Part shown: piece by piece, positions 218 through 33,901 of the stretch | Layout: every line of letters begins with the position of its first letter | How positions within the stretch are numbered: the first letter of the stretch is position 1 | Origin: Treponema sp. | GTDB lineage: Bacteria; Spirochaetota; Spirochaetia; Treponematales; Breznakiellaceae | Length of the DNA stretch: 33,901 nt | NCBI GenBank assembly: GCA_031255285.1 | Contig: JAIRSU010000070.1 | Location: 1 to 33,901 of the forward strand | Direction: 5' to 3' | The notes under the pieces: model-generated | Databases searched by the model: none | Told to the model about the DNA's origin: nothing | What the model saw: only the letters and a program-made list of their open reading frames with translations | Position numbers and translations under genes: made by a program

Positions 218-1966
218 CTAATAGCCTATGCTCCGCAGCCATTCAAGGCTCTGCCGCGCATAGGAGTCGCTGGGATTGAGCTGCAACGCCTTCTCCCAGT
301 CCGCGCGGGCGCGGGCGTAATCCTTTTTCATACTATAGATATAGCCCCGATTATTGTATGCGCTGGCGTTATTGGGGTCGAGCCGCAGGGCTTGGGTGTA
401 GTCCGCTATGGCGCGGTCATAGTCCCCCTTGTTCCGATAGGCGAGTCCCCGGCTCGTGTACACGGCCGTGTAACTGGGGTTGAGCCGCAGGGCTTGGGTG
501 TAGTCCGCAATAGCGTTGTCATGGTCCCCTTGGGCGGCGTAGGCGACGCCCCGTGCATAGTACGCATCGGTGTAATTAGGGTTGAGCCGTAGCGCCTGAT
601 TGTAGTCTGCAATGGCGCGGTCATTATCCCCTTTGTTCCGATAGGCGACGCCCCGTGCATAGTATGCGTTGACGTTATTGGGGTCGAGCCGCAACGCCTG
701 ATTGTAGTCTGCGATTGCGCGGTCATTATCCCCTTTGCCTCGGTAGGCGAGTCCACGTCCATAGTACGCATCAGTGTAATTGGGGTCGAGCCGCAACGCC
801 TCGGTGTAGTCCGCTATGGCGCGGTCGTTGTCCCCTTTGTTCCGATAGACGAGCCCCCGTGCATAGTATGCGTTGATGTAATTGGAGTTGGTCCGCAGGG
901 ACTGGGTATAGTCTGCGATCGCCTGGTCAAAGTCTCCTTTGTTCCGATAAGCGATGCCCCGTGCATAGTATGCCGTGGTGTAATTGGGATTGAGCCGTAT
1001 GGCTTGGTTGTAGTCCGCGATTGCCCGGTCATTGTCATTCTTGCCATACCGATAGGCGTTGCCACGGTTATAGTACGCGCCGCTGTCATTGGGGCTGAGC
1101 CGCAACACGCTATCCCAGTCTGCGATGGCGCGGTCATAATCCCCTTTGAGGTGGTAGGCGTTACCCCGGCAGTAGTACGTGTTGATATGGTCGGGGCTGA
1201 GCCGCAGCGCCTCGACGCAGTCCGCGATTGCCCGGTCATAGTCTTGCAGGTAGTAATACGCAAGCGCCCGGTAGCGCAGGGACGTTACATCGTCTCTCTT
1301 GACTTCAAGCGCGCGGGTAAAGTCCGCTACGGCCTCCGCGTACCGCTTGGCTTCGTAGTGTGTGAAGCCGGCGTTGAAGTACGCGGCGGCCAGAGACGGG
1401 TCAAGCTTTGTGGGAACCTTTGCGGACGGCGGTGGCGCTGTTTCAGTGGGCAGCATGAAGGACACGGTTCTGTCCCGCCTCACCGTTGCGGCAGGAGAGA
1501 CCCGCCTCACCGCAGTCTCTATGTCTATCGCGTTGAACCTGCACCGGTAGTTCCCGCCGATATCGGTCAGCCCGCCAGTAACAATGACCTGCGCACCCAG
1601 AAACTTCCCTATGCCTACCGCGCTCTCGTCGCTCACCTCCCCTGACATCTGGAAAGCCAGTTCGTCCCTCACCAGTTCCAGCCTGGACCGGTCCGTTACC
1701 ACGAGCTTCTTACCACCCGTCAGATAGCCTTGCAGTTCCTCCAGCACGAAGTCGCTGAACCGCGCGGACGGGGACTCGAAGTTCACAGCCGCGATGCGGG
1801 TCCCTTCGGGCAGTCCGTCCTCAATCTCCCGCGCTATCCGCGCTATGCCCTCGTCAAGGGACAGTCCACCCCCGGCGGCGGGCAAGTCCTGCCGAGCCGT
1901 CGAGGTTGTCGCGCAGGAAACAAAGCTAACCAGCGCAATCAACGCGATCATTCCTTTTACCTTCAT
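218..1966 (-). CDS. TPR lipoprotein with N-terminal CsgG/LpoB-like domain
   Basis: A 582-residue exported protein. Residues 1-18 form a signal peptide ending in a lipobox (F-V-S-C). Residues about 35-165 resemble the CsgG/LpoB-type fold found in spirochaetal lipoproteins: 'GTRIAAVNFESPS', 'DRSRLELVRDEL', 'VGIGKFLGAQVIVTGGL', 'RCRFNAIDIETA'. From about residue 190 there are eleven near-identical 34-residue tetratricopeptide repeats (consensus AYYARGxAYRNKGDxDRAIADY, then xQALRLxPN) and a short capping helix. TPRs build a superhelical protein-binding scaffold. By family analogy it could act in envelope assembly or secretion, but no partner is known. The start has a good ribosome site (AAGGAG). 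It is paralogous to the upstream gene at 2177-3685, which has nine repeats. Confidence 0.85.
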   Translation of the reverse strand: MKVKGMIALIALVSFVSCATTSTARQDLPAAGGGLSLDEGIARIAREIEDGLPEGTRIAAVNFESPSARFSDFVLEELQGYLTGGKKLVVTDRSRLELVRDELAFQMSGEVSDESAVGIGKFLGAQVIVTGGLTDIGGNYRCRFNAIDIETAVRRVSPAATVRRDRTVSFMLPTETAPPPSAKVPTKLDPSLAAAYFNAGFTHYEAKRYAEAVADFTRALEVKRDDVTSLRYRALAYYYLQDYDRAIADCVEALRLSPDHINTYYCRGNAYHLKGDYDRAIADWDSVLRLSPNDSGAYYNRGNAYRYGKNDNDRAIADYNQAIRLNPNYTTAYYARGIAYRNKGDFDQAIADYTQSLRTNSNYINAYYARGLVYRNKGDNDRAIADYTEALRLDPNYTDAYYGRGLAYRGKGDNDRAIADYNQALRLDPNNVNAYYARGVAYRNKGDNDRAIADYNQALRLNPNYTDAYYARGVAYAAQGDHDNAIADYTQALRLNPSYTAVYTSRGLAYRNKGDYDRAIADYTQALRLDPNNASAYNNRGYIYSMKKDYARARADWEKALQLNPSDSYARQSLEWLRSIGY

Positions 1967-1981
1967 ACTCTTTCTCCTTAG

Positions 1982-1998
1982 AACAGGCGAAGCCTGTT
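1982..1998. promoter_or_regulatory. Leader hairpin before the TPR lipoprotein gene
   Basis: AACAGGC-GAA-GCCTGTT is a perfect 7-bp stem with a 3-nt loop, about 15 nt before the start codon at 1966. The same core (CAGGCGAAGC-TTGTTA) recurs at 12284, so it is probably part of a dispersed repeat rather than a gene-specific control element. Confidence 0.5.
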
Positions 1999-2013
1999 AG
2001 ACAACTTCTTGAT

Positions 2014-2042
2014 GGTGACAGACACTTTCGGGCGCCAGACAC
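2014..2042. repeat. Dispersed short repeat, GTGTCTG-type, copy 1
   Basis: Two head-to-tail CAGACAC words separated by TTTCGG. A near copy lies at 3938-3965 (GGTGCCAGACACTTTCGG, then TGTCAGACAC). On the other strand these read GTGTCTGGCGCC and GTGTCTGTCACC, resembling the short palindromic extragenic repeats common in many bacterial genomes. Confidence 0.55.
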
Positions 2043-2060
2043 TTTTACTTACCCCGCGCA

Positions 2061-2172
2061 TGCAACAGAGCGTCTCCAGCACTTGGAGACGTGCGTCTCC
2101 AGCACTTGCAACAGAGCGTCTCCAGCACTTGGAGACGTGCGTCTCCAACACTTGCAACAGAGCGTCTCCAGC
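2061..2172. repeat. 46-bp tandem repeat, 2.4 copies, with internal hairpins
   Basis: Units start at 2061, 2107 and 2153, exactly 46 bp apart; the first two differ by a single base and the third stops after 20 bp. Each full unit contains CGTCTCC-AGCACTT-GGAGACG, a 7-bp perfect hairpin, then another CGTCTCC. The array lies immediately after the stop codon of the second TPR gene. The final CGTCTCCAGC and the following bases match the 3' flank of the first TPR gene (around 204-230), so the repeat appears to have expanded from a shared 3' end. On the minus strand it could act as a transcription terminator. Confidence 0.85.
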
Positions 2173-2176
2173 CTGC

Positions 2177-3685
2177 CTAATAGCCTATACCCCATAGCCA
2201 TTCAAGGCTCTGCCGCGCATAGGCGTTATTGGGCTCAATCTGTAGACTCCTCTCCCAGTCCGCACGGGCGCGGGCGTAATCCTTTTTCACACTGTAGATG
2301 TAGCCCCGCTCATTGTACGTGTAAGCGTCATTGGGATTGAGCCGCAGGGCTTGAGTGCAGTCCGCAATCGCCCGGTCATAGTCCCCTTTGTTCCGATACG
2401 CGAAGCCTCGGCTATAGTACGCCAGAGCGTAATTGGGGTTGATGCGTATTGCTTCGTTGCAGTCCGCAATCGCCCGGTCATAGTTCCCTTTGTCAGCATA
2501 GGCAAGTCCCCGGTTCGTGTACACGAGAGCCAAATCCGGGTTATTGAGCCGTATGGACTGGGTATAGTCCGCGATAGACCCGTCATAGTCCCCTTTGCTT
2601 CGGTAGGCGTTGCCCCGATTATTGTACGCCATCGCGTAATTGGGGTTGAGCCGCAGGGACTGATTGAAGTCCGCGATTGCACGGTTATAGTCCTCCTTAT
2701 GGTAATAGGCGAGTCCCCGATTATTGTACGCCAGCGAGTCATTGGGAGCAATCCGCAGGGCTTGATTGAAGTCCGCGATTGCACGGTCATACTGCTTTTT
2801 ACCATCCATGTAGGCGTTGCCCCGATTATTGTACGCCGCCGCATAATCAGGATTGAGCCGCAGGGCTTGATCGCAGTCTGCGATTGCTCTGTCATATTCT
2901 TTTATCTCATTGTATGCCGCGCTTCGGAGCACATAGTGGTCCGCGTTCTTCGGCTCAATCTGCGTCAAGCGGCTCGCGTCTGCAATGCTCCGCTCATAGT
3001 CTTGCAGGTTGTAATACGCAAGCCCTCGGTAACGCAGGGGCGCGGCGTCGCTTCCTTTCACCTCCAGCGCGCGGGTAAAGTCCGCTATCGCTTCAGCATA
3101 CCGCCCAGCCTCGTAGTGCGCGAAGCCTGCATTGAAGTACGCGGTCGCCAGAGACGGGTCAGGCTTTGCGGGAACCTGCGCGGGCAGGGGCGCGGTCCCG
3201 TCAGGCAGCATGAACGCTATCACACCGTCCCGTTGTATGGTTACCGCAGGCGATACTTTCCGCACCGCAGTCTCCACGTCTACCGCATTGAACCGACACC
3301 GGTAGTTCCCGCCGCCCAGGTCCGTCAGACTCCCGGTAATGAGCGCCTGTGCGCCGAGATATTTCCCTATGGATACCGCGCTCTCGTCGCTCACATACCC
3401 AGATATATGAAACTCAACCTCCTTGCGAAGGAGTTCTAGTTTAGACCGATCCATAACCTCAAGCCTGCGGTTGTTGACGAGTATACCTTGCAGTTCCTCC
3501 AACACATAGTCGCTGAACTTTGCGGAAGGGGACTCGAAGTTCACAGCCGCAATGCGGGTTCCTGCGGGCAGACCCGCCTCAATCTCCCGCGCTATCTGCG
3601 CCAGCCCTGCGTCCAACGACAGACCGCGGACCGAAACCGCAACGGTCACTGCGGCAATCAGCGCCAGTATTCCTATTCTCTTCAT
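2177..3685 (-). CDS. Exported TPR protein with CsgG/LpoB-like domain (paralogue)
   Basis: A 502-residue protein paralogous along its length to the one encoded at 218-1966. Residues 1-20 form a hydrophobic signal sequence, but there is no lipobox cysteine. It is therefore probably secreted to the periplasm or membrane-anchored by the signal, whereas its neighbour is a lipoprotein. The CsgG/LpoB-like region spans about residues 22-150 ('GTRIAAVNFESPS', 'DRSKLELLRKEV', 'SIGKYLGAQALITGSL'). Nine TPR units follow from about residue 178, one carrying an extra residue, plus a C-terminal cap ending SLEWLWGIGY (SLEWLRSIGY in the paralogue). AGGAGG sits about 7 nt before the ATG. The pair looks like a tandem duplication whose repeat number has since diverged. 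Confidence 0.85.
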   Translation of the reverse strand: MKRIGILALIAAVTVAVSVRGLSLDAGLAQIAREIEAGLPAGTRIAAVNFESPSAKFSDYVLEELQGILVNNRRLEVMDRSKLELLRKEVEFHISGYVSDESAVSIGKYLGAQALITGSLTDLGGGNYRCRFNAVDVETAVRKVSPAVTIQRDGVIAFMLPDGTAPLPAQVPAKPDPSLATAYFNAGFAHYEAGRYAEAIADFTRALEVKGSDAAPLRYRGLAYYNLQDYERSIADASRLTQIEPKNADHYVLRSAAYNEIKEYDRAIADCDQALRLNPDYAAAYNNRGNAYMDGKKQYDRAIADFNQALRIAPNDSLAYNNRGLAYYHKEDYNRAIADFNQSLRLNPNYAMAYNNRGNAYRSKGDYDGSIADYTQSIRLNNPDLALVYTNRGLAYADKGNYDRAIADCNEAIRINPNYALAYYSRGFAYRNKGDYDRAIADCTQALRLNPNDAYTYNERGYIYSVKKDYARARADWERSLQIEPNNAYARQSLEWLWGIGY

Positions 3686-31068: not shown

Positions 31069-33141
31069 CTATTTTCTCTTTTCCATGAAATCTTTGATGA
31101 GTGCATCCGAAATACTTACGGGCGCTTTGCTGTATTTCTCGAACTCCATGGAGAACTCGGCTTTCCCTTGTGTCATACCGCGAAGTGCGGTTGAATAACC
31201 GAACATTTCGCTTAACGGTACCTCTGCATCCACACGAGAGAAGGTTCCGTCTTCAGTTGAAGATACGATAACGCCTCGCCTCTGGTTGATTGATGCGAAG
31301 ATATTACCCTGAAACTCGGTGGGACCCTCGACCGATACCTTCATTATTGGTTCCAGAATACAAGGTTTAGCTTTGTTATAGGCTTCACGAAATGCTCCAA
31401 TAGAGGCCAACTGGAATGCGATATCCGACGAGTCCACCGGATGGGATTGCCCATCATTGATGAGACACCGTATATTGACCACCGGAAATCCGATAAGCGA
31501 ACCTTTTTTGACTGCCTCGCGGAATCCTTTATCGCAACTGGGGATGAATTCTGTGGGAATTGCACCGCCTTTGATATTATCTACGAACTCATAATCCCCT
31601 TCGGTCCACGGCTCCATATAACCTGCAACTCGACCGTATTGTCCAGAGCCGCCGGTTTGTTTCTTGTGTGTGTAGTTAAATTCTGCGCGTTGGGTAATGG
31701 TCTCGCGGTATGCGACCTGAGGTACGCCGGTTTCCACGACGCAGTTGTATTCGCGGAGCATTCGCGTAAGGTAAACGTCCAAATGTAATTCACCCATACC
31801 TCTAATGATGGTCTGGTTGGACTCCGGGTCAACGAAAGTCTGGAACGTAGGATCTTCCTTTGTGAAGCGCCCCAGCGCCTTTGCCATCTGGTCCGCTGAC
31901 TTCTTGTCTTTCGGAGTAATGGCGAGTGATATGACAGGTTCAGGCACGAACATCGACGACATAGTATAATTCAGGTCCCCGCCGCAGAACGTATCGCCCG
32001 AAGCGCAGTCAACGCCGAACAGCGCCACAATATCGCCCGGTGCGCCTTCGGTAATATCTTCCATGTTATTAGCATGCATCCGTACGAGCCGTCCGACTTT
32101 GAATCTCTTGCGTGAGCGCGTGTTGAGTAATTCGTCGCCTTTTTTTAACTGTCCCTGATAGATGCGGACATAAGTGAGCTGTCCATATTTGCCGTCCTCC
32201 AGCTTAAAGCCAAGCGCGACCGTAGGTTTGCCCCCGTCCACAAAAAGTTCGACCTGTTCCTCATTTCGTTCCAGATCGAGCGCAAAATTCCTGACCTCCA
32301 TAGGATTCGGCAAGTAGTACGTAACTCCATCAAGCAAGGGCTGTACACCCTTGTTCTTGTATGCCGAGCCGAGCATAACCGGCACAAGCTTTTCCTCTAA
32401 TGTGCCTTTACGAATAGTCATACGGATGAGGTCTTCGGGGATGGGACTTTCTTCCAAAAGCAATTCGGTGAGTTCATCCGAAAATTCTGAAATCACATCA
32501 AGCATTTCCTCGCGATATTTTTCTGCGTCCGCCTTGAGGTGCGGGGGGATTTCCGCAACGCGGACGATTTCGCCGTTATCCCCGTCGAAGTACAGAGCCC
32601 GCATACAAACTAGGTCTACAACACCTTCAAGTTTATCTTCCAAACCAATGGGAATCTGTATAAGAATCGCGTTGAGTCCCAATTTCTCGCACAGTTGGTT
32701 CCTCACTTTGAACGGGTTCGCGCCCGCCCGGTCGCATTTGTTGATAAACGCAATGCGCGGTACGTGATAACGCTTGAGTTGGCGGTCAACCGTGATAGAT
32801 TGAGACTGCACGCCGCCTACTGCACACAGCACCAGAACCGCTCCATCAAGCACGCGGAGAGACCGCTCGACTTCCATGGTAAAATCTACGTGTCCGGGCG
32901 TGTCAATCAGGTTGACGACATGATCCTTCCATTCGACTTGAGTAGCCGCACTCTGTATAGTGATGCCCCGCTCTTTTTCCAGCTCCATCGAGTCCATAGT
33001 CGCGCCTGCGCCGTCTTTGCCCCGCACTTCTCGGATAATATGTATCTTATTGCTATAAAACAAAACGCGTTCAGAGAGCGTCGTCTTTCCAGAGTCGATA
33101 TGCGCACTGATTCCAATATTCCGCATTTTACTGACGTCCAT
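31069..33141 (-). CDS. fusA: Elongation factor G, spirochaete/mitochondrial EF-G1-like
   Basis: A 690-residue translational GTPase that moves tRNAs and mRNA through the ribosome. G1 motif '[10 protein letters not shown]' (14-23; the usual Ala is Ser), G2 '[10 protein letters not shown]', G3 'DTPGHVDF', G4 'NKCD', then the EF-G domains II-V ('GSGQYGRV', '[12 protein letters not shown]', '[21 protein letters not shown]'). The segment '[20 protein letters not shown]' closely resembles mitochondrial EF-G1 and the corresponding spirochaete, planctomycete and deltaproteobacterial type (spdEFG). Treponemes normally also carry a second EF-G, and this one is expected to be the translocase form. AAGGAG lies 5-6 nt before ATG 33141. 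Confidence 0.95.
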
Positions 33142-33463: not shown

Positions 33464-33624
33464 CCTTTGTTCGGGTAGTCAAAGCGTTGAAAGCAGACTC
33501 TGCGAAAGTGAACCGACAACTTTCCAACATACGGGGCAGTTTTGGGCGGTCCTCCATCTACGCCATAATGCACGTCGACTGCCCTCCCCTCTTTGAAAAA
33601 AAGAAAGATTCATCGAGAATCTCC

Positions 33625-33653
33625 TTGCAATTTTTGTAGCGCCTCTGTATAAT
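33625..33653 (+). promoter_or_regulatory. Consensus-like promoter before the poly-C ORF
   Basis: TTGCAA (33625-33630), 17 nt, perfect TATAAT (33648-33653). Same architecture as the sugar operon promoter at 19565. Only 6 nt separate it from ATG 33660, so a transcript would again be leaderless, or translation starts further downstream. Confidence 0.65.
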
Positions 33654-33659
33654 AGACGC

Positions 33660-33785
33660 ATGATGAAACAGAACTGGAAGCGTTCGACAAACTATACACT
33701 CGCTGGCTCGGATTGCGCAGGCAATACGAGTGGTTCTACCCCCCCCCCCGTAAATATAGGTACAGATATACACCATATCGCATAG
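33660..33785 (+). CDS. Short ORF interrupted by an 11-C tract, possibly phase-variable
   Basis: From ATG 33660 the frame gives a 41-residue peptide (MMKQNWKRSTNYTLAG... ending at TAG 33783-33785). It contains 11 consecutive C residues at 33739-33749, coding Thr-Pro-Pro-Pro. With one extra C the frame would stay open to the end of the window (50 more codons) with no stop; with one fewer it stops at once (TAA). Homopolymer C/G tracts near promoters are classical slipped-strand phase-variation sites, also in Treponema. The downstream translation is very basic and I recognise no domain, so this may be a non-coding or decayed locus. Confidence 0.3.
   Translation: MMKQNWKRSTNYTLAGSDCAGNTSGSTPPPVNIGTDIHHIA
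33739..33749. repeat. Poly-C homopolymer tract (11 C)
   Basis: Eleven consecutive C residues, the longest homopolymer I noticed in the window, 86 nt downstream of a strong promoter. It is a candidate slippage site; length in the read data could also be a sequencing uncertainty. Confidence 0.85.
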
Positions 33786-33901
33786 CGCCTCATACAAAAG
33801 GCGCGCTCACGCCCGCCCGCTTGAGATGCAATGAGAGGGTGGCGGCAAGCTCTGCGCTGGAACCTATATCATCATGTAAACATTTAAACAAGTTCACAGT
33901 A

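Follow-up and report, generated by a model that had tools for sequence, protein, structure and literature searches.

A stretch of 33,901 nt of Treponema DNA (hereafter the window), which makes up the entire contig C78 of the source genome G000, ends inside a repeated unit in which a promoter is followed closely by a short open reading frame that carries a tract of 11 C. As judged from the DNA itself, this frame is likely to be a phase-variable, probably leaderless leader ORF that would gate translation towards an operon by its frame. In the mechanism that we propose, the promoter would start the transcript at or next to the AUG, ribosomes would begin on the leaderless message, and they would read a short leader without a fixed sequence up to the C tract, whose length would set the frame from there on. 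At closed lengths, a stop shortly past the tract would release the ribosome, while at open lengths the frame would extend up to or into the start of the next gene, or slightly past it; that gene often encodes a protein with HU-DNA_bdg/DUF4469 domains and sometimes a lipoprotein-like protein or a member of a 221-residue family. The operon would then be switched on through ribosome-covered RNA that escapes polarity, through ribosome restart at the gene or, in some cases, through fusion of the leader to it. Polarity, coupling and fusion at some loci each require an open leader.

Anatomy of the Leader and Its C Tract

The repeated unit (promoter, leader, tract and tail) occupies positions 33592-33901 of the plus strand and runs off the contig end. 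Its sigma70-like promoter (TTGCAA-17-TATAAT; 33625-33653, plus strand) agrees with the consensus at 10 of 12 positions, as expected from the initial annotation, which had called it near-consensus. The leader begins with an ATG at 33660, 6 nt past the -10 box, followed by a second in-frame ATG at 33663, and contains the frame-setting element, an exact 11-C tract at 33739-33749 of the plus strand, which starts 85 nt 3' of the -10 box. At the present, closed length the leader ORF comprises 41 codons and a stop (33660-33785, plus strand), and translation returns the 41-residue peptide that had been announced. The A+T-rich stretch past the tract (33750-33782, plus strand) closes both the present and the -1 frames, with stops at +33 and +1, respectively. 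Indeed, one C fewer, which is equivalent to the frame of two added, brings in a stop that starts 1 base past the tract, and one C more gives a frame without a stop through all 152 bases to 33901 (33750-33901, plus strand), so that 11 C is closed and 12 C open, exactly as the initial annotation had it. Since the window edge is the contig end, the +1 frame is traceable in this assembly as far as 33901.

The promoter on its own was rejected as evidence, since such sites are too common (4 promoter-like sites in 1.9 kb, against 2.6 per shuffle). The C tract, on the other hand, exceeds chance: all four overlapping C8 matches fall inside the 11-C run, while shuffles hold 0.60 each and only 1 in 100 reaches four. 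Slipped-strand phase variation is a well-known process, and the window has two features of such a locus, namely a slip-prone homopolymer beyond chance and a tract length that moves the ORF between closed and open, the open frame being followed here to the contig end. As for the surroundings, the neighbouring gene on the minus strand (31069-33141) presumably encodes elongation factor G. At the other end of the window (218-3685, minus strand), two adjoining paralogous genes of 582 and 502 residues contain many tandem repeats that by eye resemble TPR units.

Copies of the Unit in the Source Genome and in a Genus-Mate

The unit recurs in the source genome. A copy on contig C40 matches window positions 33592-33850 with 93% identity and carries 12 C, and one on C31 matches 33624-33826 with 97% identity and carries 11 C. 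Two other matches are partial: C1 has the tail only (33780-33897, 77% identity), and C124 a short promoter piece (33624-33669, 83% identity) with an interrupted C tract. The sequence 5' of the promoter differs among the copies. Contigs C78, C40 and C31 end 152, 102 and 77 bases past the tract, respectively, as expected if the assembly breaks within the repeat, and the window's own sequence past 33901 is continued by none of the four other genome matches. The C40 tail has a 1-base deletion relative to the window that would shift the frame beyond it.

Whether the +1 frame leads to a gene, a point raised by the initial annotation, could be followed through these homologues. The C1 tail runs through 21-base repeats to a gene that is preceded by a Shine-Dalgarno (SD) sequence and encodes a 221-residue protein; the +1 frame of the window aligns with the open frame of C1 (ALEPISSxKHLxKFT), which extends beyond the start of that gene. 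The gene downstream of the window, beyond the contig, probably belongs to the same 221-residue family. In the genus-mate G011, a promoter and leader similar to those of the window (71%) lie 366 nt 5' of a gene of this family, and in this copy (L176) the tract has decayed to CCCCC and the leader is closed. A second G011 copy (L275) has 12 C and, by reading, a +1 frame that spans about 50 codons, with no gene evident behind it on that strand. The 221-residue family has no match in Pfam, and in NCBIfam two matches only, for one member and far below the cut-off. The suggestion that the window edge holds a phase-variable locus is thus strengthened by a recurring unit whose near-identical copies carry 11, 11 and 12 C, and is amended in one respect, as the tract-bearing ORF looks like a leader ahead of a gene and not like the gene itself.

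C Tracts and Leader Layout across Genomes

The source assembly, a fragmented MAG of 131 contigs and 78.9% completeness, contains 60 runs of at least 9 C genome-wide. Of these, 48 are at least 11 C long, where a first-order model fitted to retrieved stretches of the same genome predicts 0.42. Eleven genus-mates have between 36 and 180 C runs per genome. Within the one genus, modal tract length differs by genome, being 11 C in G000 (28/50), 12 C in G010 (14/29) and 14-15 C in G003 (18/25). Two C-rich contig ends, at L070 (1-160) and L081, contain runs of 18-34 C that resemble assembly artefacts and inflate the count of long runs. A short palindromic word like GTGTCTGACACC / GTGTCTGGCACC was also seen many times in the non-coding DNA of these genomes (L275 after 735; L064; L088).

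The layout of the window is shared by many of these tracts. A promoter with at least 9 of 12 consensus positions, followed after 5-9 nt by an ATG with a stop-free frame up to the tract, was found at 14 of 50 usable tracts in G000 (0.09 in shuffles), at 5 of 29 in G010 (0.08) and at 5 of 25 in G003 (0.02). Usable tracts, which are those left after excluding duplicates, tracts with less than 120 nt upstream and those adjoining another C or G run, were 50 of the 60 in G000, 29 from the first 30 of 118 loci in G010 and 25 from the first 30 of 100 loci in G003. The 14 own cases amount to about 11 independent ones, as they include near-copies (C78/C40/C31 and C26/C109). With looser promoter scoring, the layout can be read at 15 of the 60 tracts of G000. 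With the -10 box this near, the transcript is expected to start at the AUG or right next to it, and the 6-9 nt from -10 box to ATG at the 14 tracts of G000 would predict leaderless translation.

A scan of 84,980 species genomes with the forward pattern only (TTGACA-N17-TANNNT-N6..8-ATG-N38..68-C10), returned 82 stretches; among the 80 listed, 43 come from one Gastranaerophilales genome, 30 from Treponema/Spirochaetaceae MAGs and 7 from elsewhere. Within the window's own family, a similar pattern was present in 42 of 145 genomes, compared with 7 for a reversed control. The Gastranaerophilales genome, Candidatus Gastranaerophilales Lapin-014__bin53 (L091-L168), belongs to an unrelated phylum and holds at least 43 similar, mutually related copies with a promoter, an ATG 6-8 nt further on, a leader about 16 codons long and C10-13. 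Its leaders are open in 43 of 43 cases (9.5 expected), and an open frame reaches a gene in 2 of 20 (0.35 expected). Treponema of the G010/G011 type were presumably isolated from termite guts. Breznakiellaceae, the family of the window, is described as that of most termite-gut spirochaetes (PMC13067680). The layout may extend beyond termites, as the isolate name of L118, one of the 30 treponeme loci of the pattern scan, suggests a mouth sample.

These counts raise the wider possibility, which we hold somewhat less probable than its opposite, of a family-wide class in which many operons are headed by leaderless, sequence-free leader ORFs, the like layout of Gastranaerophilales, with its at least 43 copies, having arisen separately. 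Under that same tentative reading, the leader would serve solely to let the ribosome continue or fall off, as dictated by C-tract length, and the translation of a throw-away peptide would itself be the randomly switched signal.

Reading Frames before and after the Tract

The frame of the leader is kept open up to the tract more often than expected, both at the Treponema/Spirochaetaceae loci of the pattern scan (27/30, 11.4 expected) and at the family loci (26/30, 14.0 expected). Past the tract, one or two of the three frames reach the next gene with SD and ATG, and the remaining frames mostly stop within a few dozen bases. In particular, a frame reaches the gene at 6 of 7 own loci (1.15 expected), at 5 of 6 loci of G010 and G003 taken together (0.92 expected), at 13 of 22 treponeme loci of the pattern scan (4.17 expected, sd 1.31) and at 8 of 15 family loci (3.3 expected, sd 1.3), about six of which overlap the earlier sets and two of which (L242 and L243) reach the gene with a closed leader. 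This count covers loci with an SD gene within 700 nt, which leaves aside 7 of 14 own loci, 4 of 10 in G010/G003 and 8 of 30 in the pattern scan; for six of the seven own loci so excluded the sequence ends within 300 nt past the tract, and for the remaining one, C109, at 553 nt. A gene-reaching frame is absent at one of the seven own loci (L085), at one G003 locus (L229), at 9 of 22 pattern-scan loci, at 7 of 15 family loci and, by reading, at 5 of 9 additional loci of the genus. Two of the three frames reach the gene at L042 and L052, which leaves a single closed length class there. All of these loci, like the C40 deletion and the two G011 copies, count against the proposed reading. Consensus lengths are open to the gene at C1, C5 and C38 and closed at C85, C123 and C130. 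Where no gene is visible, the frame at consensus length runs open to the contig end at C40 and C109 and is closed in the window and at C31, C26 and C68.

The way in which the open frame meets the gene varies. Among 23 reached loci (L160, whose gene is only 52 nt away, was left out), a fused in-frame reading is possible in 10, and the other 13 overlap the gene solely out of frame; the genes counted carry their own SD and ATG by selection. Out-of-frame readings end within 26 nt past the gene start in 16 of 19 cases, against 89 of 162 controls (p 0.015). ATGA/TAATG overlaps were considered as proof of coupling and rejected, as they are equally common in operon controls (7/19 against 49/162, p 0.60). 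Between tract and gene, tandem repeats with units of about 21 bases, or 7 codons, occur at L040 (after 229), L072, L045, L080, L177 and L203 and keep one frame free of stops despite the A+T-rich DNA.

The Leader as a Putative Translated Element and the Genes Behind It

In homologous sets, differences fall almost evenly on the three codon positions, both in leaders (18/22/24) and in tails (98/100/119), which suggests that the openness of the frame is kept and not the peptide sequence. A conserved leader peptide as the product was therefore rejected, given the lack of a third-position excess, and the pattern fits a sequence-free open leader whose translation, rather than its product, would matter. 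Two further ways in which the leader could act were also set aside. Intrinsic terminators between tract and gene are not enriched (11 of 51 intervals, 9.95 in shuffles), which speaks against them as a general gate, and occlusion of the SD in the closed state was rejected with a median SD accessibility of 0.40 compared with 0.43 in controls (p 0.26).

Ten downstream genes were searched against profiles. Four of them (L042, L052, L067 and L196) encode HU-DNA_bdg together with DUF4469, L087 has Big_3 repeats, L195 is a methyltransferase, and the gene of L085 has a List_Bact_rpt match below the curated cut-off. The remaining three gave no match, two of them belonging to the 221-residue family. By eye, lipoprotein-like genes also lie downstream in several operons.

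Alternative Explanations

The same tracts could reflect ordinary intragenic phase variation, with the tract in the 5' coding part of a surface gene and the open length fusing the leader to it. The loci that permit a fused reading (e.g., L080, L062, L195, L213 and L230) agree with this, as do tracts of G000 placed within lipoprotein-like ORFs just past the signal region. In the latter (L056 2027-, L066 2005+ and L074 517+, on contigs C52, C76 and C115), the tract lies slightly past a lipobox-like Cys and its length shifts the frame of the lipoprotein-like protein itself; L056 at its present length reads into a 431-residue protein. We nevertheless regard this explanation as unlikely, because 13 of 23 reached loci overlap the gene out of frame alone, the counted genes having their own SD and ATG by selection, and because the leader sequence lacks codon-position conservation. 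Decay offers a less probable account still, in which the unit spread by copying together with a gene family and now controls nothing at many of its sites, that of the window included. The tract without an evident gene at L275, the tract lost at L176 and the interrupted one of C124 are what it would predict, whereas many loci still have frames that stay open for hundreds of bases and the window unit retains an intact promoter, an open leader and its tract.

Mechanisms that act on the RNA fare worse. Ribosome-driven attenuation, in which ribosomes on an open frame would suppress an intrinsic terminator that lies past the tract and before the gene, would suit the strong hairpins with a T-run at L052 (-11.5), L062 (-19.1), L144 (-17.3) and L113 (-19.1), and yet few loci have a terminator at all, at the frequency of shuffles given above, so that we consider it very improbable. 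Slippage of RNA polymerase or of the ribosome, by which both frames would be made at a fixed ratio with no heritable switch, could account for tract lengths that cluster by genome, as these could reflect a set length; it appears just as improbable, since near-identical copies in the same genome differ by one C, as slippage of DNA predicts, and since the consensus length is an open one at some loci and a closed one at others. The idea that C runs and contig ends produce an artefact of assembly or sequencing draws on the fragmented MAG and on the artificial-looking C-rich ends of L070 and L081, and we give it the least credit of all, because many tracts of the class are internal to their contigs and flanked by unique sequence (C123, C128 and C130) and the architecture recurs in other genomes. 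The reading that we favour is that of a leader ORF whose tract length would decide whether translation is carried towards the operon.

Relation to Known Switches

In Helicobacter pylori, the G-repeat in the leader of tlpB is reportedly read by the small RNA RepG. The likeness is that of a length-variable homopolymer in an mRNA leader that affects the genes behind it; tlpB is said to act via the small RNA in an untranslated leader, whereas the window tract sits in a reading frame. The closest system in logic is the G-tract switch of sortase pili in Bifidobacterium breve (bbr_0113, bbr_1889), in which a tract of the wrong length causes premature termination of translation and, as its authors infer, polarity on the genes that follow (PMC9187656). 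There, too, a strongly transcribed ORF carries the homopolymer close to its start (PMC9187656). That switch is fusion-based, its second ORF having no SD and being joined to the first when the tract has the right length (PMC9187656), whereas 13 of the 23 reached treponeme loci have no fusing frame and overlap an SD-led gene only out of frame, which sets the class apart from the intragenic type of bbr_0113; moreover, the treponeme leader is non-conserved and probably leaderless.

The initial annotation had also invoked homopolymer switches known in Treponema, a precedent that holds in part. Treponema pallidum, a related spirochaete, shares homopolymer phase variation of surface genes, with lengths of 7 to 11, and the poly-G tracts of tprE/G/J, tprL and tp0126 act in the promoter on transcription, while poly-G tracts inside ORFs are tabulated as well (PMC7864442). 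The window tract lies inside the leader ORF, 85 nt past the -10 box, and thus is not of the promoter-spacing type of tpr, tp0126 and porA. Nor do the loci as a class resemble a ribosome-mediated attenuator with an intrinsic terminator, given the 11 of 51 intervals against 9.95. Finally, Escherichia coli has short uORFs that, as here, precede an SD-led gene and that begin with an AUG at the mRNA 5' terminus (e.g., ptrB), and some uORF mutations alter downstream expression (PMC4965119); they are described with neither repeat tract nor phase variation, unlike the treponeme leaders (PMC4965119). In the open-access literature, we found no account of a leader that is leaderless and non-conserved, contains a C tract and serves as a repeated gate.

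Significance

If this reading is correct, phase control would be exerted on the translation of a leader, in a manner distinct from both the promoter-spacing and the in-gene types, and it would follow a rule that can be scanned for in genomes: a promoter, 6-9 nt, an ATG, an open leader, a C tract and one open frame to the gene. It would also account for assemblies that break at such units, and it would make possible a clean reporter comparison of polarity and coupling. All in all, uncultured spirochaetes, which are probably gut symbionts, would hold a genome-wide random switchboard of surface operons.
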